Shown here piece by piece: positions 26,100 through 34,770 of a stretch of DNA of 35,389 nt. Position 1 is the first letter of the stretch, and each line of letters begins with the position of its first letter. The stretch is from Actinomycetes bacterium (GTDB taxonomy: Bacteria; Actinomycetota; Acidimicrobiia; Acidimicrobiales; Palsa-688). Location of the stretch: the NCBI GenBank assembly GCA_021838445.1, contig JAKCDU010000040.1, forward strand, positions 1 to 35,389, written 5' to 3'. The translations under genes and the position numbers were made by a program. A model generated the notes under the pieces. The model worked only from the letters and a program-made list of their open reading frames with translations, made no database searches and had not been told where the DNA came from.

Positions 26100-26690
26100 T
26101 CAGGCGAGCGCCCCCGACGAAGCGGTCCGGAGGTGCCGGAGCCGGGCCAGGACGGCCGCGGCCGTGGCCAGCATCACCCCTCCGTACAACTCCAACGCCC
26201 GGTCGCCCACGACCCACCCGTACGCCCCCCACGAGCCGGCGTCGACCACGGCCAGCCACCACGTCCAGCGCGACAACCCGACCGGCCGGGTGCTGGTGTA
26301 GGCCGAGTAGACAGCCGGTCCGCAGCAGACCAGCACACCGGCGGCGAGAGCCACCGTGAGGATGCCGGCCACGGCGCTCAGGGCGATGGCGGCGAACCAC
26401 AGGCCGGCCAGAGCCAGGTCGGCCCGTCGAGCAGCCCTCCGCAGGAGAAGTACCGTCCACGTCGAGGTGGCCAGGGCCGGGATCGATACCAGCCACACCG
26501 CGGGCAGGTGTCGATCCAACCCGTAGGTCAGCCACGCCAGGTCGGCGATGCCGGCGTTCATGGCCGCCAGGGCCGACACCCCGGCCATATGGCCCGTGCG
26601 CAGCGTCCGAAGCGGCTGCGGAAGGAGCCGCACCAGGAACGCTCCTGAGGCCGCCACGGCCAGGGCGGTGGCGCCGCTGAAGCCGGACAC
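26100..26690 (-). CDS. PQ-loop / SWEET-like membrane protein
   Basis: A 196-residue membrane protein with about six or seven helices. The first PQ-loop motif is RLLPQPLRTLRTGHMAGVSA, followed by AWLTYGLDRHLPAVWLVSIP. A second copy-like region near the C-terminus reads GPAVYSAYTSTRPVGLSRWTWW then SWGAYGWVVGD, the paired layout of SWEET/MtN3-type transporters. Relatives move sugars or amino acids by facilitated diffusion; the substrate is unknown. GTG 26690 lies 5 nt after the enoyl-CoA hydratase stop, so the genes are probably co-transcribed. Confidence 0.78.
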   Translation of the reverse strand: MSGFSGATALAVAASGAFLVRLLPQPLRTLRTGHMAGVSALAAMNAGIADLAWLTYGLDRHLPAVWLVSIPALATSTWTVLLLRRAARRADLALAGLWFAAIALSAVAGILTVALAAGVLVCCGPAVYSAYTSTRPVGLSRWTWWLAVVDAGSWGAYGWVVGDRALELYGGVMLATAAAVLARLRHLRTASSGALA

Positions 26691-26695
26691 GGCTG

Positions 26696-27448
26696 TCAGA
26701 CGGCCCAGCGAGGAGGGCGCTTCTCGCGGAACGCGGCTATGCCTTCGGCACCGGTCTCGGTGCCGAAGAAAGCGGCCGATATCCCTGCGGCGTAACCCAG
26801 CCCGGATGCCACATCCATGCTCGGGACCTGCCTCATCAGCTCTCGCGTGGCCTCGAGGGCTCCCGGCTCGCATGTCCGGAACAGATCCAGGAGGCCGTCG
26901 AGGGCCGGCTCCAACTCCCCGTCGGCGACGACCGAGCCGACCAAGCCGCAGCGCATCGCCGTCTCGGGGTCGAACGTCTCACCGGTGAGCAGGTAGCGCG
27001 ACGCCGCCGAGGGATTCATCTTGCGCAGGCACAATACCGATATGAGGGCCGGCACCAAGCCGAGGCGGACCTCCGAGAAGCAGAAGGTCGCGGTCTCGAC
27101 GCTCACCGCCACGTCGGCGGCCGCCAGCAGCCCGAAACCGCCGGCCCGGACGTGTCCGTTGACGGCGACCACCACCGGCTTGGGGTGCTCCCACAGGGCC
27201 AGCAGCAGTTCCCCGAAGGAACCGGGCCCGTCTTGCACGGGCGGGTCGCTCAGGTCGGCTCCGGCGCAGAAGGTGTTGCCCGTGGCGGTGATGGCCACCG
27301 CCCGGACTGTCGGATCGGCCGCCACATCGGCGAGATGACCGATCATCTCCGCCACCAGTCGCCGCGACAGGGCGTTGCGGTTGGCCGGGGAGTCCAGGGT
27401 GAGGACCGCAGATCCGCGCCGGTCGGCGCGTCGGACCAAGTCGGTCAC
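26696..27448 (-). CDS. Enoyl-CoA hydratase/isomerase family protein
   Basis: A 250-residue crotonase-fold protein. The substrate-binding NRNALSRRLVAEM segment, the oxyanion-hole sequence TFCAGADLSD and the second oxyanion/active-site stretch NGHVRAGGFGLLAAADVAVS are present. At the usual catalytic-Glu region it reads FCFSEVRLGLVPALIS, so the Glu of SEVRLG is retained, while the second Glu of classical hydratases is not obvious; isomerase or another CoA chemistry is possible. GTG 27448 is the start. It is the middle gene of a three-gene operon with gaps of 10 and 5 nt. Confidence 0.88.
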   Translation of the reverse strand: MTDLVRRADRRGSAVLTLDSPANRNALSRRLVAEMIGHLADVAADPTVRAVAITATGNTFCAGADLSDPPVQDGPGSFGELLLALWEHPKPVVVAVNGHVRAGGFGLLAAADVAVSVETATFCFSEVRLGLVPALISVLCLRKMNPSAASRYLLTGETFDPETAMRCGLVGSVVADGELEPALDGLLDLFRTCEPGALEATRELMRQVPSMDVASGLGYAAGISAAFFGTETGAEGIAAFREKRPPRWAV

Positions 27449-27458
27449 CGGGCGGGAC

Positions 27459-27869
27459 TCAGAACTCGGGGGAGAGGGGGCGTTCCACCGCGCCGGTGAC
27501 CATCTCGTGCAGTTCGAAGGGGGTGCACGGTGGGGCGGTGATCCCGGCGAGCAGGTTGAGCTCGAGGGGTATGAGCGAACGGCGCTGGAGTCTGATCAGC
27601 GAATGCTCATCCCAGGTCAGGAGGAGCAGGTCCGAAGCGAGCCGGGCGACCGTGCCCGACCAACCGGCCGGCTCCGGTGGGGAGGCCGGGTAGGCTAGGC
27701 GCACGAGGTCAGCGCGCGAGGCGTGGCCGAGCAGGGCGATCAGCGTCCAGGCCGGGAGCCGTTCGCGGCGGGAGATGTAGCTCTCGAGGGTGCGGCCTTG
27801 GAGGATTCGCTCCGCCTCGCCGACGATTCCGCGGGCGCCTCGGTACTGACGACCCTTCCCCCAACGCAT
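27459..27869 (-). CDS. 136-residue hypothetical protein
   Basis: A soluble protein I do not recognise. It has a basic N-terminus (MRWGKGRQYRGARG), a helix with ILQGRTLESYISRRERLPAW, and a hydrophobic middle (TLIALLGHASRADLVRLAY, LASDLLLLTWDEHSLIRLQ), then LIPLELNLLAG. ATG 27869 is my choice; the frame is open further upstream to TTG 27908. It ends 10 nt before the enoyl-CoA hydratase start, the first gene of that operon. Confidence 0.6.
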   Translation of the reverse strand: MRWGKGRQYRGARGIVGEAERILQGRTLESYISRRERLPAWTLIALLGHASRADLVRLAYPASPPEPAGWSGTVARLASDLLLLTWDEHSLIRLQRRSLIPLELNLLAGITAPPCTPFELHEMVTGAVERPLSPEF

Positions 27870-27994
27870 CAGGCGGCCATTCCTGTCTCCTAGTACGGCT
27901 CGTCCCAACCCTTCCGGAGTGGGCCTGTCGGTGCTGCCCCCGAATCCTTCAACAGCGGCCCTGAGCGTAGCAGTCGATCCCGGCGGCGATGAGC

Positions 27995-28029
27995 GAGGCC
28001 CCCTGCCCCTGACCGGGCCAGGGGGCCTC
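27995..28029. promoter_or_regulatory. 11-bp perfect stem-loop in a divergent promoter region
   Basis: GAGGCCCCCTG (27995-28005) pairs perfectly with CAGGGGGCCTC (28019-28029) around a 13-nt loop. It lies between two divergent genes, so it cannot terminate either, and no T-run follows. The acyl-CoA dehydrogenase promoter (TACCTT at 28047-28052) would start transcription downstream of it. It could be a protein-binding site or terminate antisense transcripts. Confidence 0.6.
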
Positions 28030-28060
28030 GGCGCCGGGCGGGGAACTACCTTGGACGGTC

Positions 28061-29209
28061 ATGATCCGGACTCTCTTCGATGCCGACCACGAGGCCCTGC
28101 GGGCCAGTTTCCGGTCGTGGCTGGACAAGGAGGTGGTACCGCACCTCGAGGAGTGGGACGGCGCGGGGATCGTGCCCCGCCAGGTGTTCGCCGAAGCCGG
28201 CCGGCACGGGTTCCTCGGCATGGCCATACCGGAGGAGTACGGGGGCGGTGGCCAGCCCGACTTCCGCTACAACCTGGTCATAGGAGAGGAGGTCCAGGCG
28301 GCCGGAGCCGGCGCCGCGGGACTGGGTCTGACGCTGCACAACGACATCTGCCTGCCCTATTTCCTGCGCTACTGCAACGAGGAGCAGCGCCGACGGTGGC
28401 TGCCCGGGTTGGCTTCGGGAGGACTGATCACCGCCATAGCCATGACCGAGCCGGGAATCGGTTCCGATCTGGCTTCCATGTCCACCACCGCCCGGCGCGA
28501 CGGGGATTCCTACGTGGTCAACGGATCGAAGACGTTCATCACCAACGGGATCAACGCCGATCTGGTCATCACCGCAGTGAAGACCGACCCGACCCAGAGG
28601 CACAAGGGCATGTCGCTGCTGGTGCTGGAGCGGGGCATGGCCGGCTTCGAGCGGGGGCGCAACCTGGACAAGATCGGCCAGCACGCCCAGGACACCGCCG
28701 AGTTGTTCTTCACCGATGTGGTCGTTCCCGCCGCCAACCTGCTGGGCGAGGAGGGCCAGGGCTTCGCTCAGCTCGTGGCCAACCTGCCTCAGGAGCGCTT
28801 GTCCATCGCCGCCGCCGGGGTGGCCGCGGCCCGGGCCGCCCTCGGCTGGACCCTGGGGTACGTTAAGGAGCGGATGGCCTTCGGTCAGGCCATCGGCTCG
28901 TTCCAGAACAGCCGGTTCGTGCTGGCCGAGGTGGCCACCGAGGTGGAGGTCGGCCAGGCCTTCGTCGATCGTTGCGTCACCGCCCTGAACGAGGGAGACC
29001 TCACCGTCGAGGAGGCGGCGATGGCCAAATGGTGGTGCACCGAACTGCAGAAGCGGGCCGTGGACCGGTGCCTGCAGCTGTTCGGCGGGTACGGCTACAT
29101 GACCGAGTACCCCATCGCCCGGGCCTACCTCGACGCCCGCATAACCACCATCTACGGCGGCACCACCGAGATCATGAAGGAGATCGTCGGTCGCTCCCTG
29201 GGCCTTTGA
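28061..29209 (+). CDS. Acyl-CoA dehydrogenase
   Basis: A 382-residue FAD-dependent acyl-CoA dehydrogenase. Family marks: the AIPEEYGGGG segment, the AMTEPGIGSDLASM flavin/substrate-binding motif near residues 127-140, VNGSKTFITNG, and the C-terminal LFGGYGYMTEYPIARAYLDARI followed by IYGGTTEIMKEIVGR. The residue that is the catalytic Glu in medium-chain enzymes is Gly here (IYGGT). The base is probably Glu245 in LPQERL, as in long-chain acyl-CoA and isovaleryl-CoA dehydrogenases. A role in fatty or branched acyl-CoA oxidation beside the nearby hydratase is likely. The last 38 nt overlap the convergent Kelch gene. Confidence 0.93.
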   Translation: MIRTLFDADHEALRASFRSWLDKEVVPHLEEWDGAGIVPRQVFAEAGRHGFLGMAIPEEYGGGGQPDFRYNLVIGEEVQAAGAGAAGLGLTLHNDICLPYFLRYCNEEQRRRWLPGLASGGLITAIAMTEPGIGSDLASMSTTARRDGDSYVVNGSKTFITNGINADLVITAVKTDPTQRHKGMSLLVLERGMAGFERGRNLDKIGQHAQDTAELFFTDVVVPAANLLGEEGQGFAQLVANLPQERLSIAAAGVAAARAALGWTLGYVKERMAFGQAIGSFQNSRFVLAEVATEVEVGQAFVDRCVTALNEGDLTVEEAAMAKWWCTELQKRAVDRCLQLFGGYGYMTEYPIARAYLDARITTIYGGTTEIMKEIVGRSLGL

Positions 29210-31013
29210 GCCCGGGAAGCCCGGCCGGTCGCCGCCGGCGCGCCCCCACCGCGGCCATGGCCAGGTAGGTCGCGGCCGGGATGCCGACGGCCAGGCCGAC
29301 CATGGCCAGCCTGGTGGACAAGGGGGCGGCCCGGGGGCCCCGGCCGAGCACCCTCACGGTCGTCTGGGCGTCCATGAGCCGCCCCGAAGCGGCCATGCCT
29401 TCGGCCACGAAGCGGTGCTCGCCAACCGCGGCCCAACCCGGGACGGTCACGAGCACCCGGAAAGTGCCGTTCCGCCCGGCGGTGACCTGACCCAGCCGGT
29501 CGGGGGTCGAGTGGAAGGAGAGGGTGATGATGGCGCCCGGGGCGAACCCGCTCCCGCTCAGCCATACGGGGCCGGCCGGGCGCAACCGGGCCCCGGAGGC
29601 CAGCAGCTCGACGGGGGGGGAGCCGGCGACGGGGACCGGCGGCCCGGTGGTGGTCGCCGGAGTCGAACCGGACCCGCCCGCCACCGCAGAGCTGCCGGGT
29701 CGGGCTCCGATCGTGGTGGACACCGCCGGCGGGCCGCCCGGCGGCACCGTGGCCGGGGTGGGGGCTACGCCGGTCGCAGTGGTGGACGGCGAGTCGCTAC
29801 TGCCCGCAAGAGCGAGCAGGCCGGTGTCGTCCAGGGCCTCGCCGTGGCTGTCGCGGCCTCCGTAGACGACCAGATCGGAGGTGGCTGAGTCGTAGGCCGC
29901 AGCGGCGCTCTGGCGGGCCGGCGGATTACCCGAGACGCTCAGCTCGGACCAGCTTCCGCCCGACCACAGCCAGGCGTCGGACATGGTGCCCGACGATCCG
30001 AGGCCGCCCATGAGCACCGGCGCGCCGCCCACCGCGTCGTAGGCGCCGGCCGCGTCGACCCGACCCGGTGGGGACTTGGCCGGGTGGGCCTCGGCCCAAC
30101 GCGAACCGTTCCAGACCCAGGTGTCGGCCAGGACGGCCGGCGGCGACCCCTGTGTGGTGGCCTGACCGCCGAACAGCACAGCCGTGGCGTCGCTGCTGTC
30201 GGTGACGAGCAGGGCGTCCGAGCGCGCCGGTGGTCCCTCGGTGGCGGAGGGCACCCAACCGGTAGCGGTCCAGAGCCAGGTATCGGACAGGTCCGTCCCG
30301 GCGGTGGCCGCGGTGGCGCTGGTGGCCTGGGACGCCAGGACCTGGTTGGAGCGGCGCGCGGCGGAGCTCGGATCGGCGCCGGGGGAAGCGGGGGGGGCCG
30401 ACGGGGCCGGCTGGTCGGGTGCGTGGGTGGTGGTCGAGGTGGTGGTCGTGGTGGAGGGGGCCGTCGTGGTCGAGGTGTCGGGGGGCGGCGGGTTGCCGAT
30501 CCCGCCGAAGAGCACCAGTTGGCCGTGACCGTCGTAGGCCATGGCCGCGGCCTGGCGGGCCGGCGGCGCGGCCGCGGTCGCGACTATCTGGTACCACCAG
30601 GCCCCGTTCCACGCCCAGGTATCCGACAGCAGGTTCCCGTTCTGGTCCTTCCCCCCGAAGAGGATCAGCTGGTGGAGCACCGGGTCGAAAGCCATGACTG
30701 CGGCTTGCCGGGCCGGCGGTTCGGGGGTGGAAGGTGCTGTCCAGGAGTGCCCGTCCCACAACCAGGTCGTGTCGTTGAGCGCCCCGCTGGCGGTGACCCC
30801 GCCGAAGAGCACGACCGTCGACGAGTCGGCGTCGTAGGCGGCTGAGGCGTACTCGAGGGCGGGTGGCGACGCCGGGGTGGGAGCCGTCGACCACGACCAG
30901 GGAGTGGAGGCCGTCGCGGTGCCCGACGCGGCGAAGCCAGAGCCGATGAGCAGCGCCGCCGTGGCGCCGAGCAGGCCCAGGAGCCTGGTCGGGAGATGTG
31001 GCTGGAGGTACAT
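29172..31013 (-). CDS. Exported Kelch-repeat protein with C-terminal membrane anchor
   Basis: A 613-residue secreted protein. The N-terminal signal peptide has a hydrophobic core (LLGLLGATAALLIGSGFAASG) and a likely AxA cleavage site. Six Kelch-type blades can be counted from their beta-strand cores VVLFGGV, LILFGGK, LVLFGGI, AVLFGGQ, PVLMGGL and LVVYGGR, most preceded by PPAR and followed by DTWLW. Ser/Thr/Pro-rich linkers (a poly-Thr stretch around residues 185-200) split the propeller and follow it. Then comes an Ig-like VWLSGSGFAPGAIITLSF domain and a last membrane helix (LAMVGLAVGIPAATYLAMA) with a basic tail. It is probably a cell-surface protein; the ligand is unknown. Its 3' end overlaps the acyl-CoA dehydrogenase gene by 38 nt. 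Confidence 0.87.
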   Translation of the reverse strand: MYLQPHLPTRLLGLLGATAALLIGSGFAASGTATASTPWSWSTAPTPASPPALEYASAAYDADSSTVVLFGGVTASGALNDTTWLWDGHSWTAPSTPEPPARQAAVMAFDPVLHQLILFGGKDQNGNLLSDTWAWNGAWWYQIVATAAAPPARQAAAMAYDGHGQLVLFGGIGNPPPPDTSTTTAPSTTTTTSTTTHAPDQPAPSAPPASPGADPSSAARRSNQVLASQATSATAATAGTDLSDTWLWTATGWVPSATEGPPARSDALLVTDSSDATAVLFGGQATTQGSPPAVLADTWVWNGSRWAEAHPAKSPPGRVDAAGAYDAVGGAPVLMGGLGSSGTMSDAWLWSGGSWSELSVSGNPPARQSAAAAYDSATSDLVVYGGRDSHGEALDDTGLLALAGSSDSPSTTATGVAPTPATVPPGGPPAVSTTIGARPGSSAVAGGSGSTPATTTGPPVPVAGSPPVELLASGARLRPAGPVWLSGSGFAPGAIITLSFHSTPDRLGQVTAGRNGTFRVLVTVPGWAAVGEHRFVAEGMAASGRLMDAQTTVRVLGRGPRAAPLSTRLAMVGLAVGIPAATYLAMAAVGARRRRPAGLPGLKGPGSDRRSPS

Positions 31014-31043
31014 CGTGGGGTCGCGGCCCTCCGACGAGGACCG

Positions 31044-31117
31044 TGGAGCGGGCGACGGGAGTCGAACCCGCGTAACCAGCTTGGAAGGCTGGCGCTCTAC
31101 CGTTGAGCTACGCCCGC
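31044..31117 (-). tRNA. tRNA-Gly (anticodon TCC)
   Basis: On the minus strand the acceptor GCGGGCG pairs with CGCCCGC, the anticodon stem-loop is CCAGC-CTTCCAA-GCTGG with anticodon TCC, the T-loop is GTTCGAC-type, and CCA is encoded at 31046-31044. Confidence 0.96.
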
Positions 31118-31209
31118 AGCGTGAGTTGATCCTAGCGGTGCGGCGGCCTCCCGTCTGGTCGGAGGACCCGACGGGAGAAGAGCCGGTTGGAGATCGTCAG
31201 GCGGTTTGG

Positions 31210-31258
31210 TCCGTCGGGGAGGGGGGATTCGAACCCCCGACCTCCTGCTCCCAAAGCA
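31210..31258 (-). repeat. Left attachment repeat: displaced 3' part of tRNA-Pro (49 bp)
   Basis: The 49 nt are identical to 34602-34650 and end at both sides where the copies diverge. They hold the anticodon stem-loop through the 3' end of tRNA-Pro(TGG) plus 4 nt beyond it. The 5' half of the tRNA is missing here, so this is not a functional tRNA but the displaced end left by integration. Confidence 0.93.
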
Positions 31259-31372
31259 CCCCAAGTTCGTGAGGTCTGGCGAAGTCTGGAGCGTTACCGC
31301 AGGTCAGAGCGGGTGCCCGAAACTACATCGTTGTGTCTAGTTGGGGGCTGAGAGGGTGGGTCGGCAGAGTTT

Positions 31373-31392
31373 CGTTGACAAACCCGTTGACA
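31373..31392 (+). repeat. CGTTGACA direct repeats, left end (candidate integrase arm sites)
   Basis: CGTTGACA occurs at 31373-31380 and 31385-31392, 12 nt apart, about 115-135 nt inside the left attachment repeat. The same octamer pair lies near the right end. Confidence 0.65.
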
Positions 31393-31396
31393 CGGG

Positions 31397-32155
31397 TCAG
31401 TCTCGGCCGGCAGCCGGTTCACGGGCCGCGATGAGTTCGAGGAGTCCCTCGATACGCTCCAGCCGTTCCTCTACCGCTACCAAGCGGACGGTCGCCACGT
31501 CTTGCTTCTCGTCCACGAAGAAGCTGGCGATGGTCGCCGTGAGAGTGCCTATGAGCCCTATGCCGACGAGCATGAGCACGACCGCGATCCCTCTGCCGCC
31601 AGCGGTGACGGGATAGCGGTCGCCGTAGCCGACCGTTGTCACAGTTACTACCGCCCACCACAGGGCGTTGGCGTAACCGTGAATGTTGGAGCCTTTGGCG
31701 TGGCCCTCGAGTGCCAGTTCGAGACCGGAGGCGGCCATCACGATGAAGAACGCCGCGAGGAGCACAAAGTGCAGGCCCCGGTGCGTCAGTAGCGCCCGGA
31801 GGCGAGCCAGGCCCGAGGCCAGAACAATCGCAGCCCGGCCCAGGCGGAGCACGCGCAGCAGCCTGACGACCCGTAGCGGGCGGAGGAACGGTACGGCTAC
31901 GATCACCAAGTCGACGGGGTGGCGCCGGACGAAGGACCACCGCTGAGGAGCTAGGTAGACCTTGACGACGTACTCGACGGCGAAGAGGGCCCAGACGGTG
32001 TAGTCGACGCCACTGAACGCAGAGGCAGTTTCGCCGTGCAGGGTCACGACCAAGGGGATGATCAGGACCGGCAGCCACAGGATGGTCAGGACGGCCATCG
32101 GTGCCTCGACGGTGTCGGAGAACCGGTTGAAGGCTCGGTCGCTTCGTTCCGGCAT
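31397..32155 (-). CDS. Voltage-gated potassium channel family protein
   Basis: A 252-residue six-helix ion channel subunit. The S4 voltage sensor has Arg at every third position (R92, R95, R98, R101, R104, R107). The pore loop carries the K+ selectivity filter TTVGYGD (residues 173-179) between S5 (FVLLAAFFIVMAASGLEL) and S6 (GIAVVLMLVGIGLIGTLTATIASFF). A C-terminal helix (VRLVAVEERLERIEGLLELI) looks like a tetramerising coiled coil. It should assemble as a tetramer in the cytoplasmic membrane. It is the cargo-like gene of the tRNA-Pro element, downstream of two small genes on the same strand. Confidence 0.92.
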   Translation of the reverse strand: MPERSDRAFNRFSDTVEAPMAVLTILWLPVLIIPLVVTLHGETASAFSGVDYTVWALFAVEYVVKVYLAPQRWSFVRRHPVDLVIVAVPFLRPLRVVRLLRVLRLGRAAIVLASGLARLRALLTHRGLHFVLLAAFFIVMAASGLELALEGHAKGSNIHGYANALWWAVVTVTTVGYGDRYPVTAGGRGIAVVLMLVGIGLIGTLTATIASFFVDEKQDVATVRLVAVEERLERIEGLLELIAAREPAAGRD

Positions 32156-32176
32156 GGCGAGGCTCTGAGGGCTTGC

Positions 32177-32350
32177 CTAGAGCCCGAACTTCTTGAACAA
32201 CCGCCGCGTCTCCCTGCCCTCGCTCTTGTAAACGGCGCGCCGAACCTGTCGCTTGGCGAGCGCGGCAGGGCCCTTGGATGCGGCTCTGGCGGTCGCCGAA
32301 GCCCTAGCGGCCTTGTAGAGCATGTTGGTCAGGCTGGACTTACGGGCCAT
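32177..32350 (-). CDS. 57-residue highly basic protein
   Basis: A small gene whose ATG (32350-32348) shares one base with the TAA of the RHH-like gene (TAATG), and whose TAG ends at 32177. The product is very basic (MARKSSLTNMLYKAARASA, then KRQVRRAVYKSEGRETRR, ending LFKKFGL) and helical, suggesting nucleic-acid or membrane-surface binding. I do not recognise the family. The coupling and high Lys/Arg content support that it is real. Confidence 0.65.
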   Translation of the reverse strand: MARKSSLTNMLYKAARASATARAASKGPAALAKRQVRRAVYKSEGRETRRLFKKFGL

Positions 32351-32514
32351 TACTCCTCGTCTTTCTCGACTGCGGCGGCGATGGCCTGCTCGATGTAGGC
32401 CCTGAGAGTGACTCCACGGTACGCGGCTTGCGCCTTGGCCCGGCGGTGCAAGTCGTCGTCTATCTCGTAGTGGATACGGGCCACGGCCCTTGACGGTAGT
32501 TGGCGTTCGCTCAT
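32350..32514 (-). CDS. RHH/Arc-like small DNA-binding protein
   Basis: A 54-residue protein: a short beta strand (AVARIHYEIDDDLHRR) followed by two helices (AKAQAAYRGVTLRAYIEQAI), the ribbon-helix-helix pattern of Arc/CopG-type repressors and antitoxins. A GAGG ribosome-binding site precedes ATG 32514 by 4 nt. A perfect palindrome at 32532-32555, just upstream, is a likely binding site, so it probably controls its own operon and the divergent gene. Confidence 0.75.
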   Translation of the reverse strand: MSERQLPSRAVARIHYEIDDDLHRRAKAQAAYRGVTLRAYIEQAIAAAVEKDEE

Positions 32515-32531
32515 GCTTCCTCTATTGCTTA

Positions 32532-32555
32532 GTGGACTAAATGCCATTAGTCCAC
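32532..32555. promoter_or_regulatory. Palindromic operator between divergent element genes
   Basis: GTGGACTAA (32532-32540) and TTAGTCCAC (32547-32555) are perfect 9-bp complements around the spacer ATGCCA. The site is 17 nt upstream of the RHH-like gene and 59 nt upstream of the plus-strand gene at 32615, suitable for dimer-of-dimer binding by an RHH repressor. Confidence 0.7.
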
Positions 32556-32614
32556 GTCCCGAGGTACCAGGGCGGGAGCTACAGGGGCACCCAACCGGGA
32601 GCAAGGAGCAGAAG

Positions 32615-32887
32615 ATGACCACGACCACGCAACCGGCTGTGCCGAGCGCCGAGGACCGAGAGAACGCCCTAGTCCTTCTGGCATACGACCCCGACGAGTA
32701 CGGCCGCCTGCACGAGAAGATCGGCGACGACGCTCTCGCGTTCATCCTGCACTCGATCAGCGTCGAAATCCTGCGGCTGCGGACCGCCGCGGACACCCTC
32801 GTCTACGTCGGCGGGAGCTCTCGTTCAGCCTCCTGCCTTGTTCGGCTTCGACGGTGGCGACGAACCGGGCGCCGCGGAGGTCGGTGA
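32615..32887 (+). CDS. Small element protein with a rearranged C-terminus
   Basis: A frame of 90 residues from ATG 32615, with GGAG about 8 nt upstream. Residues 1-67 look like real coding sequence (PSAEDRENALVLLAYDPDEY, IGDDALAFILHSISVEILRL). From about residue 68 (near 32816) the reading enters the antisense of the primase fragment and becomes Arg-rich noise, so the original C-terminus was probably lost at a deletion junction. The function is unknown. Confidence 0.5.
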   Translation: MTTTTQPAVPSAEDRENALVLLAYDPDEYGRLHEKIGDDALAFILHSISVEILRLRTAADTLVYVGGSSRSASCLVRLRRWRRTGRRGGR

Positions 32888-33202
32888 GGCCGGTGGGGTG
32901 CTGTTCGTGGGCGGCAGCGGTGAGGATGGTCGGGTCGAGTTGGAGGCCGTAGTCGCCGAAGACGGCTCGGAGCACGTTGAGAAAGGTGGTCTTGCCGTTG
33001 GCGCCGTGGCCGTGACAGAAGACGAGGATGTGCTCGTGGACGTGGCCGGTGAGGCTGTAACCGGCGGCCCGCCGGACGAACCCGATGAGCTCGTCGTCGC
33101 CGAACACGTCGGCGAGGAAACGGTCCCAGGTGGGGCAGGCGGCGTCGGGGTCGTACACGACCGGGGCCAACTTGGTGAGCATGTCGGCCTTGCGGTGCGG
33201 CG
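32816..33202 (-). pseudogene. D5-type phage/plasmid primase-helicase fragment
   Basis: About 125 residues of the D5/DUF5906-type primase helicase domain: DMLTKLAPVVYDPDAACPTW, the AAGYSLTGHVHEHILV segment, a Walker A motif GANGKTTF (around residue 60 from ATG 33182), DLRGARFVATVEAEQGRRL, then an abrupt end near 32820. On the 5' side homologous sequence extends only to about 33200, where integrase sequence of the opposite strand begins. Full proteins are usually 400-800 residues, so both ends are lost and replication function is unlikely. Confidence 0.8.
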
Positions 33203-33247
33203 AAGACCGCCGAGGGTCTGCGGCCCGCGACCATCTCTCTCTACAAG

Positions 33248-34114
33248 ATGGCTATCAACGCCTGGATCGTGCCGAATGTCGGCGCGGTGGAGGCCCGGTC
33301 GTTGAGGCCGGCCCGGGTGGGGGAGCTGGTCGCTGAGCTCCGGGTCGGCGGGAGCACCCAGGGGAGGGGTCCGCTGTCGGCCCGGTCGGCGCAGGTCGCC
33401 GTGCAGATACTCAAGGCCGCCACTCGCTGGGCGAACGCCACCGGCCTCCTTCAGGTCGATCCCCTCGTCGGCTTCAAGCGGCCCAGGGCCCAGTCGAAGA
33501 CGATGGAATACTGGGAGGCGCACGAGGCCCGGCAGTTCCTCGCCCACACCGCAGACGACCGACTGGCAGCCATCTGGGCTTTGTTCTCGGCCAGGGGGCC
33601 GCGGCGGGGGGAGGTGTGCGGGTTGCAGTGGTCCGACGTCGACTTCGACGCAGGGAAGATCAGGATCCGCCGGACCAGGGTCCTGATCGACGGGAACGCG
33701 GCGGAGTCCACCCCGAAAACGGACAGGGGCCGGCGCACGATCTCCATCGACCCGATGCTCGTAGCGCTCCTGCGGTCCCACAAGGCGAAGCTGGCGGCCG
33801 AGAGGCTTCGGGCGGGGGAGGCGTACGAGGACGGCGACTGGCTGGTCTGTGACGAGCTGGGCCGGCCGTGGTACCCGGACTCGGTCACCGAGAGGTTCGA
33901 CACGCTGGTCAAGCAGTCGGGGCTGAGAAGGATCAGGCTTCACGACTGCCGGCACACGGCGGCGACCCTGCTCCTCGGGAACGGAGTCCCGGTCCACGAG
34001 GTGGCGGCGATGCTCGGGCACGACCCGGCCGAGACGCTGCGAACGTACAGCCACTCCATCCCCGGCCACGCCGAAGAGGCGGGCGCTGCCCTGTCCGCTG
34101 CGCTGCTCGGGTAG
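33248..34114 (+). CDS. Tyrosine-type site-specific integrase, N-terminally truncated
   Basis: A protein of 288 residues from ATG 33248. The core-binding domain lacks its first part: the in-frame sequence LRPATISLYK just upstream of the ATG still matches family sequence, but a TGA at 33176 and the junction with the primase remove the arm-binding domain. The catalytic domain is complete: Arg in the RRGEV motif, HDCRH (His-x-x-Arg-His box), LGH and the nucleophile Tyr in TYSHS. Typical actinobacterial relatives are about 380-400 residues. It should recombine attachment sites in tRNA-Pro, but loss of the arm-binding domain probably prevents normal activity. Confidence 0.87.
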   Translation: MAINAWIVPNVGAVEARSLRPARVGELVAELRVGGSTQGRGPLSARSAQVAVQILKAATRWANATGLLQVDPLVGFKRPRAQSKTMEYWEAHEARQFLAHTADDRLAAIWALFSARGPRRGEVCGLQWSDVDFDAGKIRIRRTRVLIDGNAAESTPKTDRGRRTISIDPMLVALLRSHKAKLAAERLRAGEAYEDGDWLVCDELGRPWYPDSVTERFDTLVKQSGLRRIRLHDCRHTAATLLLGNGVPVHEVAAMLGHDPAETLRTYSHSIPGHAEEAGAALSAALLG

Positions 34115-34125
34115 GAGGCCCCCTC

Positions 34126-34518
34126 GTGAAACACTCGACTGGGCACGTCCTCATGGCGCTGATATCGGTGCTCGCTGTCGCCGCCATCTGGCGTGACATC
34201 GCCACCTGCCATCCCACCCCGCGCACTCCGCCCGTCCGGGCGCAGTATCCGCTCTTCACGACCGCCAGATGCAACGCGGCGACCGTGTTCACGTGGCTGG
34301 ACGAACCGGCACCAGGAGGCGGGTATCAGCCGATCCTGTGCGGTGGTGCTCCACCGTCGGATACCGGCAACTGGGGTGCGAACCTGCCGGCACCGGGCGC
34401 CACGTCCGCAGCTGCACCGGCTGTCGTGCGGTCGGCGCCGGCCGCTATCGGCTGCCCGGCCGACTTCTGCAACCCCTCCAACCCCAACCCGGCGGTACCG
34501 GTGACCCGCTCCGGTTGA
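34126..34518 (+). CDS. Small membrane-anchored or exported Cys-containing protein
   Basis: A 130-residue protein starting at GTG 34126, 7 nt after a TAGGAGG ribosome-binding site and 11 nt after the integrase stop, so probably co-transcribed with it. One N-terminal hydrophobic helix (VLMALISVLAVAAIW) is followed by an extracytoplasmic part with five Cys (CHP, ARCN, ILCGG, GCPADFC), Pro/Ala-rich linkers and a polar tail. I do not recognise a family. Confidence 0.6.
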   Translation: MKHSTGHVLMALISVLAVAAIWRDIATCHPTPRTPPVRAQYPLFTTARCNAATVFTWLDEPAPGGGYQPILCGGAPPSDTGNWGANLPAPGATSAAAPAVVRSAPAAIGCPADFCNPSNPNPAVPVTRSG

Positions 34519-34550
34519 CTTACAAAGATGTTCGTTGACATCCGTTGACA
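34513..34550 (+). repeat. GTTGAC repeats, right end (candidate integrase arm sites)
   Basis: CGTTGACA occurs at 34533-34540 and 34543-34550, with a partial copy GTTGACT near 34514. They lie about 50 nt inside the right attachment repeat and match the octamers at 31373-31392. Confidence 0.65.
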
Positions 34551-34560
34551 AAGAACGACC

Positions 34561-34587
34561 GAAGGCCCCTCGGGTGGAGGGGCCTTC
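34561..34587 (+). terminator. Strong hairpin, terminator-like, at the right end of the element
   Basis: GAAGGCCCCT (34561-34570) pairs perfectly with AGGGGCCTTC (34578-34587) around a 7-nt loop. It follows the last plus-strand element gene by 42 nt and stands 14 nt before the attachment repeat. There is no T-run, as is common in GC-rich actinobacteria. Confidence 0.65.
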
Positions 34588-34601
34588 ACCCTGCGGTTAT
34601 C

Positions 34602-34650
34602 TCCGTCGGGGAGGGGGGATTCGAACCCCCGACCTCCTGCTCCCAAAGCA
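34602..34650 (-). repeat. Right attachment repeat within tRNA-Pro (49 bp)
   Basis: Identical to 31210-31258. On the minus strand the identity starts in the anticodon stem and runs to 4 nt beyond the tRNA 3' end, consistent with strand exchange near the anticodon loop. Confidence 0.93.
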
Positions 34651-34677
34651 GGTGCGCTACCGCTGCGCCACTCCCCG
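34606..34677 (-). tRNA. tRNA-Pro (anticodon TGG)
   Basis: On the minus strand the acceptor CGGGGAG pairs with CTCCCCG, the anticodon stem-loop is CCTGC-TTTGGGA-GCAGG with anticodon TGG, the discriminator is A, and no CCA is encoded. Its 3' 45 nt are supplied by the integrated element, its 5' 27 nt by the chromosome. Confidence 0.95.
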
Positions 34678-34770
34678 GGCTGAGCCTGAATGCTAACGGC
34701 CCGGGGCGACCGCCCGTCGCCTGTCGTTCGTCGCCCATCTCCGTCGTCTGGGGCCGGGGCCGCTAACCTC

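Follow-up and report, generated by a model that had tools for sequence, protein, structure and literature searches.

A 3.4-kb region of the 35,389-nt stretch of DNA analysed here (the window) is probably what deletions have left of a larger, phage- or phage-satellite-like element that integrated at tRNA-Pro, and has retained intact a probable cargo operon with a voltage-gated K+ (Kv) channel. As such it would offer a clean case, controlled by an empty site, in which the surrounding mobility genes decay whilst a voltage-gated K+ channel is kept complete. K+ channels were known before as occasional phage passengers, and the element adds a further example.

Table 1. Features of the tRNA-Pro insertion (window positions).
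Feature	Position	Strand	Evidence
Displaced 49-bp copy of the tRNA-Pro 3' end, outer attachment site	31210..31258	-	Perfect repeat; flank continuous with the G001 empty site
Insertion interior, absent from congener G001	31259..34601	.	Empty-site alignment; channel without match in G001
Voltage-gated K+ channel, 252 aa, S1-S6, TVGYGD filter, C-terminal helix	31397..32155	-	Pfam, PHROG 7872, PDB, AlphaFold, Foldseek
p57, 57-aa basic protein, predicted helical hairpin	32177..32350	-	74% relative in G002:C500; lone chromosomal homologues; model
54-aa ribbon-helix-helix (RHH) regulator	32350..32514	-	HicB/Arc-like matches; sequence
Orphan ORF, 5' part, apparently cut at scar to primase	32513..32815	+	No Pfam/PHROG match
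Perfect 9-bp inverted repeat GTGGACTAA-N6-TTAGTCCAC, candidate operator of RHH operon	32532..32555	.	Sequence
Phage D5-type primase, internal fragment	32817..33182	-	phrog_6088 and D5_N matches; residues 1-122 of ORF
Tyrosine integrase without N-terminal (arm-binding) region, catalytic motifs kept	33191..34114	+	Phage_integrase; alignment with six relatives
130-aa orphan ORF, hydrophobic N-terminus	34126..34518	+	No Pfam or PHROG match
Inner 49-bp repeat, 3' part of intact tRNA-Pro	34602..34650	-	Repeat search and ARAGORN
Intact tRNA-Pro(TGG)	34605..34677	-	ARAGORN

Insertion into tRNA-Pro and the empty site in a congener

The perfect 49-bp repeat of the tRNA-Pro(TGG) 3' end around 3.39 kb, which the sequence-only reading had described, was reproduced by repeat search and ARAGORN (Table 1). 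The two copies are exact, lie at a spacing of 3392 and bound a 3,392-bp insertion; the right-hand copy forms the 3' portion of an intact tRNA gene, since ARAGORN places tRNA-Pro(TGG) across it. A 48-mer of the repeat has just two copies in its own genome of 3.99 Mb. In the congener G001, a single contig (C43) corresponds to both flanks: L038:1-5163 aligns to window positions 26117-31258 at 93%, including a tRNA-Gly, and L038:5115-5265 aligns to 34602-34759 at 88%, around one tRNA-Pro. Because this neighbourhood passes uninterrupted through the single tRNA-Pro into the right flank, it represents an empty site. The region thus has the tRNA 3'-end direct repeat at both ends and the empty site in a relative by which a tRNA-integrated element is recognised, and the proposed integration into tRNA-Pro is supported by the very comparison suggested for it, with synteny kept on both sides. 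The channel has no match in G001 at E 0.001; with the site empty and the channel absent there, the view of the channel as element cargo gains support, and its conservation in the chromosome of this element-free relative, which would have counted against that view, is not seen.

Of the 32 family genomes surveyed, 19 had a recognisable tRNA-Pro 3' end. Among the 18 others with the site recognised none has a duplicated 3' end, the window's genome alone having an insertion between copies, so that no relative in this set carries both copies without an insertion, the arrangement that would have spoken against integration; neither do these genomes contain the further tRNA-Pro insertions of the same kind that the sequence-only reading had proposed to look for. 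On the same survey, tRNA-Pro was rejected as an insertion hotspot of the family. The tRNA-Pro of another congener, G002 (contig C128), is unoccupied.

Truncated mobility genes and a related island

The integrase gene noted from the sequence is present and matches Phage_integrase, but is 5'-truncated: in alignment it is short of about 70-75 N-terminal residues that are present in all six of its best relatives (374-427 aa). The ORF as listed starts at 33248 and encodes 288 aa, or about 307 aa if extended back to the scar near 33191, and retains its catalytic residues and motifs, R, K, HxxR, H and Y (R in GPRRGEV, K in PKTDRG, HDCRH, GHD and TYSH). With its N-terminal region missing, the protein is not a complete site-specific recombinase, a property that bears on autonomous mobility and not on the status of the region as a remnant. 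Truncated integrases can sometimes still act, or receive help in trans.

A primase fragment had also been reported, and can be refined as an internal one: residues 1-122 of a 141-aa ORF match phrog_6088 positions 455-577 of 772, the remainder of the ORF not being primase, and the fragment is 44-45% identical to a 742-aa frame in G001:C53. The integrase reading frame opens where the homology of the divergent, antisense primase stops. Taken with the fragmentary state of the primase, this therefore identifies at least two visible scars, near 32816 and 33190; the listed orphan ORF 32513-32887 continues antisense across the former into primase sequence. The small size stressed in the sequence-only reading is accordingly real, at 3.4 kb, but it results from deletions, as the truncated integrase and primase show, and does not denote a minimal element.

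All six integrase relatives have a tRNA gene no more than 2.5 kb away. The nearest full-length integrase (59%) belongs to an intact island of about 11.9 kb in the tRNA-Phe gene of G023, a genome of the same family as that of the window (L177:881-12794, contig G023:C140), where 45 bp of the tRNA 3' end are repeated. This island encodes an integrase, a repressor-like HTH protein, an excisionase (Xis)-like protein and a terminase large subunit; none of the proteins scanned was recognised as a tail or portal protein, and by this gene content the island is phage-satellite-like. It shares with the window element the closest integrase, a tRNA 3'-end att repeat and convergent integrase and tRNA genes, but differs in its size, its full-length integrase, its repressor, Xis-like and terminase genes, and the absence of a channel. 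No intact parental element of the window insertion was found; we infer that the window element derives from a larger element comparable to the G023 island.

The sequence and the empty site show that the element, which would then have been larger and phage- or phage-satellite-like, entered the 3' half of tRNA-Pro(TGG) by means of its tyrosine integrase, its own copy restoring the tRNA gene. Later deletions, visible in the truncated genes, took the integrase N-terminus and most of the primase, and through them self-excision was probably lost; the element is probably immobile.

The probable RHH-p57-channel operon

These deletions left intact a probable cargo operon, in the order RHH regulator, p57, voltage-gated K+ channel. 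Both the 57-residue basic protein and the RHH-like regulator of the earlier reading exist as ORFs, the regulator with HicB/Arc-like matches and p57 with no match in Pfam or PHROG. The RHH stop overlaps the p57 start (TAATG), and the channel start lies 21 nt downstream of p57. The candidate operator palindrome stands 17 nt before the RHH start and is unique in its own genome at up to 2 mismatches; because the 35-kb window has perfect 9-bp inverted repeats at close spacing in five places, the argument lies in its position and not in its existence. The RHH protein probably represses its own operon at this site.

The channel had been described as complete, with R-x-x-R spacing in S4 and a TVGYGD filter, and this was borne out. 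Pfam gives Ion_trans_2 (4.6e-17) and Ion_trans (5e-16), phrog_7872 matches at 1.3e-37, and S4 carries six arginines at every third residue (R92, R95, R98, R101, R104, R107), which together with the K+ selectivity filter constitute the sequence hallmarks of a prokaryotic Kv channel. A PDB sequence search matched KcsA (4e-19, pore), KvLm and Kv channels, and Foldseek likewise led from the AlphaFold model (mean pLDDT 84.9, pTM 0.49) to Kv channels, the domain arrangement in this monomer model being unreliable (TM-scores about 0.4). We therefore regard the protein as a canonical six-helix prokaryotic Kv channel, its function being assigned from its family. KvAP, KvLm and KcsA resemble it in pore homology (KcsA, KvLm) and Kv fold, but are chromosomal and have had their currents measured, whereas the window channel is known from sequence and model. 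Kv channels of this type are opened by depolarisation and bring the membrane toward the K+ equilibrium potential. Judged by its family, the window channel would form a membrane tetramer, open on depolarisation and pass K+, and this flow would return the membrane potential toward the K+ equilibrium potential; as lysogenic-conversion cargo it could alter the electrical or K+ state of the host.

The closest relative of the channel (66%) is encoded on contig C500 of G002 (L040), together with a serine integrase, the large subunit of a terminase and a phage major head protein. Here too p57 (74%) is followed by the channel, the order being the same and the spacing similar, and comparison of the two channel genes gave dN of about 0.28 and dS of about 1.4 (Nei-Gojobori type count), as expected under purifying selection on the protein. 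Unlike the window element, C500 has the serine integrase, terminase and major head genes and no tRNA, and the RHH gene was not found on this contig, beside p57 or elsewhere. Among 298 genomes of the order, 15 contain p57 relatives as lone genes. With RHH absent from C500 and p57 relatives standing alone, the RHH-p57-channel set is therefore not a conserved module. The gene order proposed for search elsewhere was thus recovered in part, as p57-channel on one phage-like contig, but with the RHH gene not shared and p57 mostly alone; the pair has two instances, one in each of two unrelated phage-like elements from the same genus, with possible effects on membrane potential and phage resistance.

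The chromosomal p57 homologues (L131-L164) form a conserved basic family of 55-60 residues with the pattern LYRxAR...GPxAYAKRxxRRxVY. As p57 has no match in INPHARED or IMG/VR and is mainly a lone chromosomal gene, its interpretation as a phage protein was rejected. On C500, the gene at L040 6-838, which we take to be nucS-like, adjoins the channel-bearing phage-like genes, and a partial second copy of its start lies at the contig end; this duplicated start is possibly an integration boundary.

Alternative readings and K+ channels elsewhere

A second assembled copy of the element bears on its authenticity. Contig C273 of G002 (JAKBAX010000393.1) contains the entire interior and the right flank, differing at 3 of 4,026 bp (99.9% to the window). 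It most likely comes from the window's species and was misbinned, because its host flank is also like that of the window's genome (G000); for the same reason, and with the tRNA-Pro of G002 itself unoccupied, independent transfer of the element into G002 was rejected. An assembly or binning artefact that joined unrelated contigs would find some encouragement in the draft state of both the G000 and G002 assemblies and in the probable misbinning of C273, but is exceedingly improbable: the concordance of two assembled contigs through element and right flank argues against misassembly, and the left flank is syntenic with G001. We also think it quite unlikely that the region is a functional minimal satellite, for which the short integrase would be enough and the primase fragment without relevance. 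Its intact catalytic motifs and perfect att repeats would agree with this, but all six integrase relatives have the additional N-terminal domain, the integrase frame opens at a scar adjoining antisense primase, and no second such insertion appeared in the family survey. Nor does the region resemble a PICI-like phage satellite, just a primase fragment being left and no packaging gene being found among the element ORFs scanned against PHROG. A shrunken remnant of a larger element thus continues to be the reading that we prefer.

Other readings concern the cargo. RHH and p57 could be a toxin-antitoxin-like pair that retains the element, with the channel as a bystander, and the resemblance of RHH to HicB, ParD and FitA antitoxins, the overlapping stop and start, and the palindrome upstream are all in keeping with such a pair. 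However, where an RHH antitoxin would have an adjacent conserved toxin, the pair is not conserved on G002:C500, p57 accompanying the channel there without an RHH gene, and p57 relatives are lone chromosomal genes, which makes this reading very unlikely. It is doubtful, too, that p57 and the Kv channel constitute a two-gene module disseminated by the lineage's phage-like elements, in which p57 would control the channel and thereby set the host membrane potential, for example against superinfection. A more specific defence role, also unlikely, would have the channel (with p57) act as a superinfection-exclusion or abortive-infection module, phage attack shifting the potential, the channel opening and ion flux halting the phage in the manner of RexB or Sbash gp31, for both of which a depolarising pore has been proposed (PMC6426596). 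The phage-like setting in two elements favours this, as do the prophage-encoded RexAB, Sbash gp30/31 and CarolAnn gp43/44, in which a membrane ion channel is paired with a cytosolic protein (PMC6426596, PMC7542560), a partnership that p57 could fill. Yet these systems, likened to the present one for their arrangement, have channels of four predicted membrane helices and RexA or DUF4747-type partners, whereas a Kv-type channel and a protein without family match are found here; the channel, p57 and RHH have no match among the known defence families of PADLOC, and p57 mostly occurs without the channel. Moreover, depolarisation of the RexB/Sbash type is opposite to expectation for a K+-selective voltage-gated channel, which is not the obvious component for the membrane-depolarising module that the sequence-only reading had entertained; such a role is not supported.

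The same reading had called ion channels unusual cargo for so small an element. As cargo they are indeed uncommon, but were already known in phages. Kv-like channels that also match phrog_7872 occur in four IMG/VR contigs (L046-L049), 33-39% identical to the window channel, with tail or tail-spike genes nearby in three and the channel between two integrase-like genes in one; an alignment-based IMG/VR scan returned no relatives. INPHARED phages gave distant (<60%) matches only, in Listeria, Lactobacillus, Enterococcus and Vibrio phage records, and a list of putative auxiliary genes from desert-soil viruses includes potassium channels (PMC8269230). The literature searched yielded no functional study of a bacteriophage-borne K+ channel. 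Tailed-phage channels (PHROG 7872, 14690 and 15627; L046-L049) share with the window channel the TVGYGD Kv type and a phage or provirus location, but the latter differs from the IMG/VR examples in being preceded by an RHH gene and p57 and in lying within a shrunken tRNA element.

Channel homologues at 30-45% identity have mostly ordinary chromosomal settings, a tyrosine integrase being recognised in the flank examined at 3 of 80 genome loci. Because so few loci lie near a recognised integrase, the channel is possibly a host-derived gene captured by the element; a general linkage between Kv channels and integrases was rejected on the same count. In G013:C85 (L043:8837-12095), an integrase and tmRNA flank a 61% homologue with a reading frame that starts near S4, an arrangement that suggests another mobile, possibly truncated copy. 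At a contig end of Streptococcus mitis SK564 (L105:208-2507), a Kv homologue (32%) is located about 500 bp from a tyrosine integrase.
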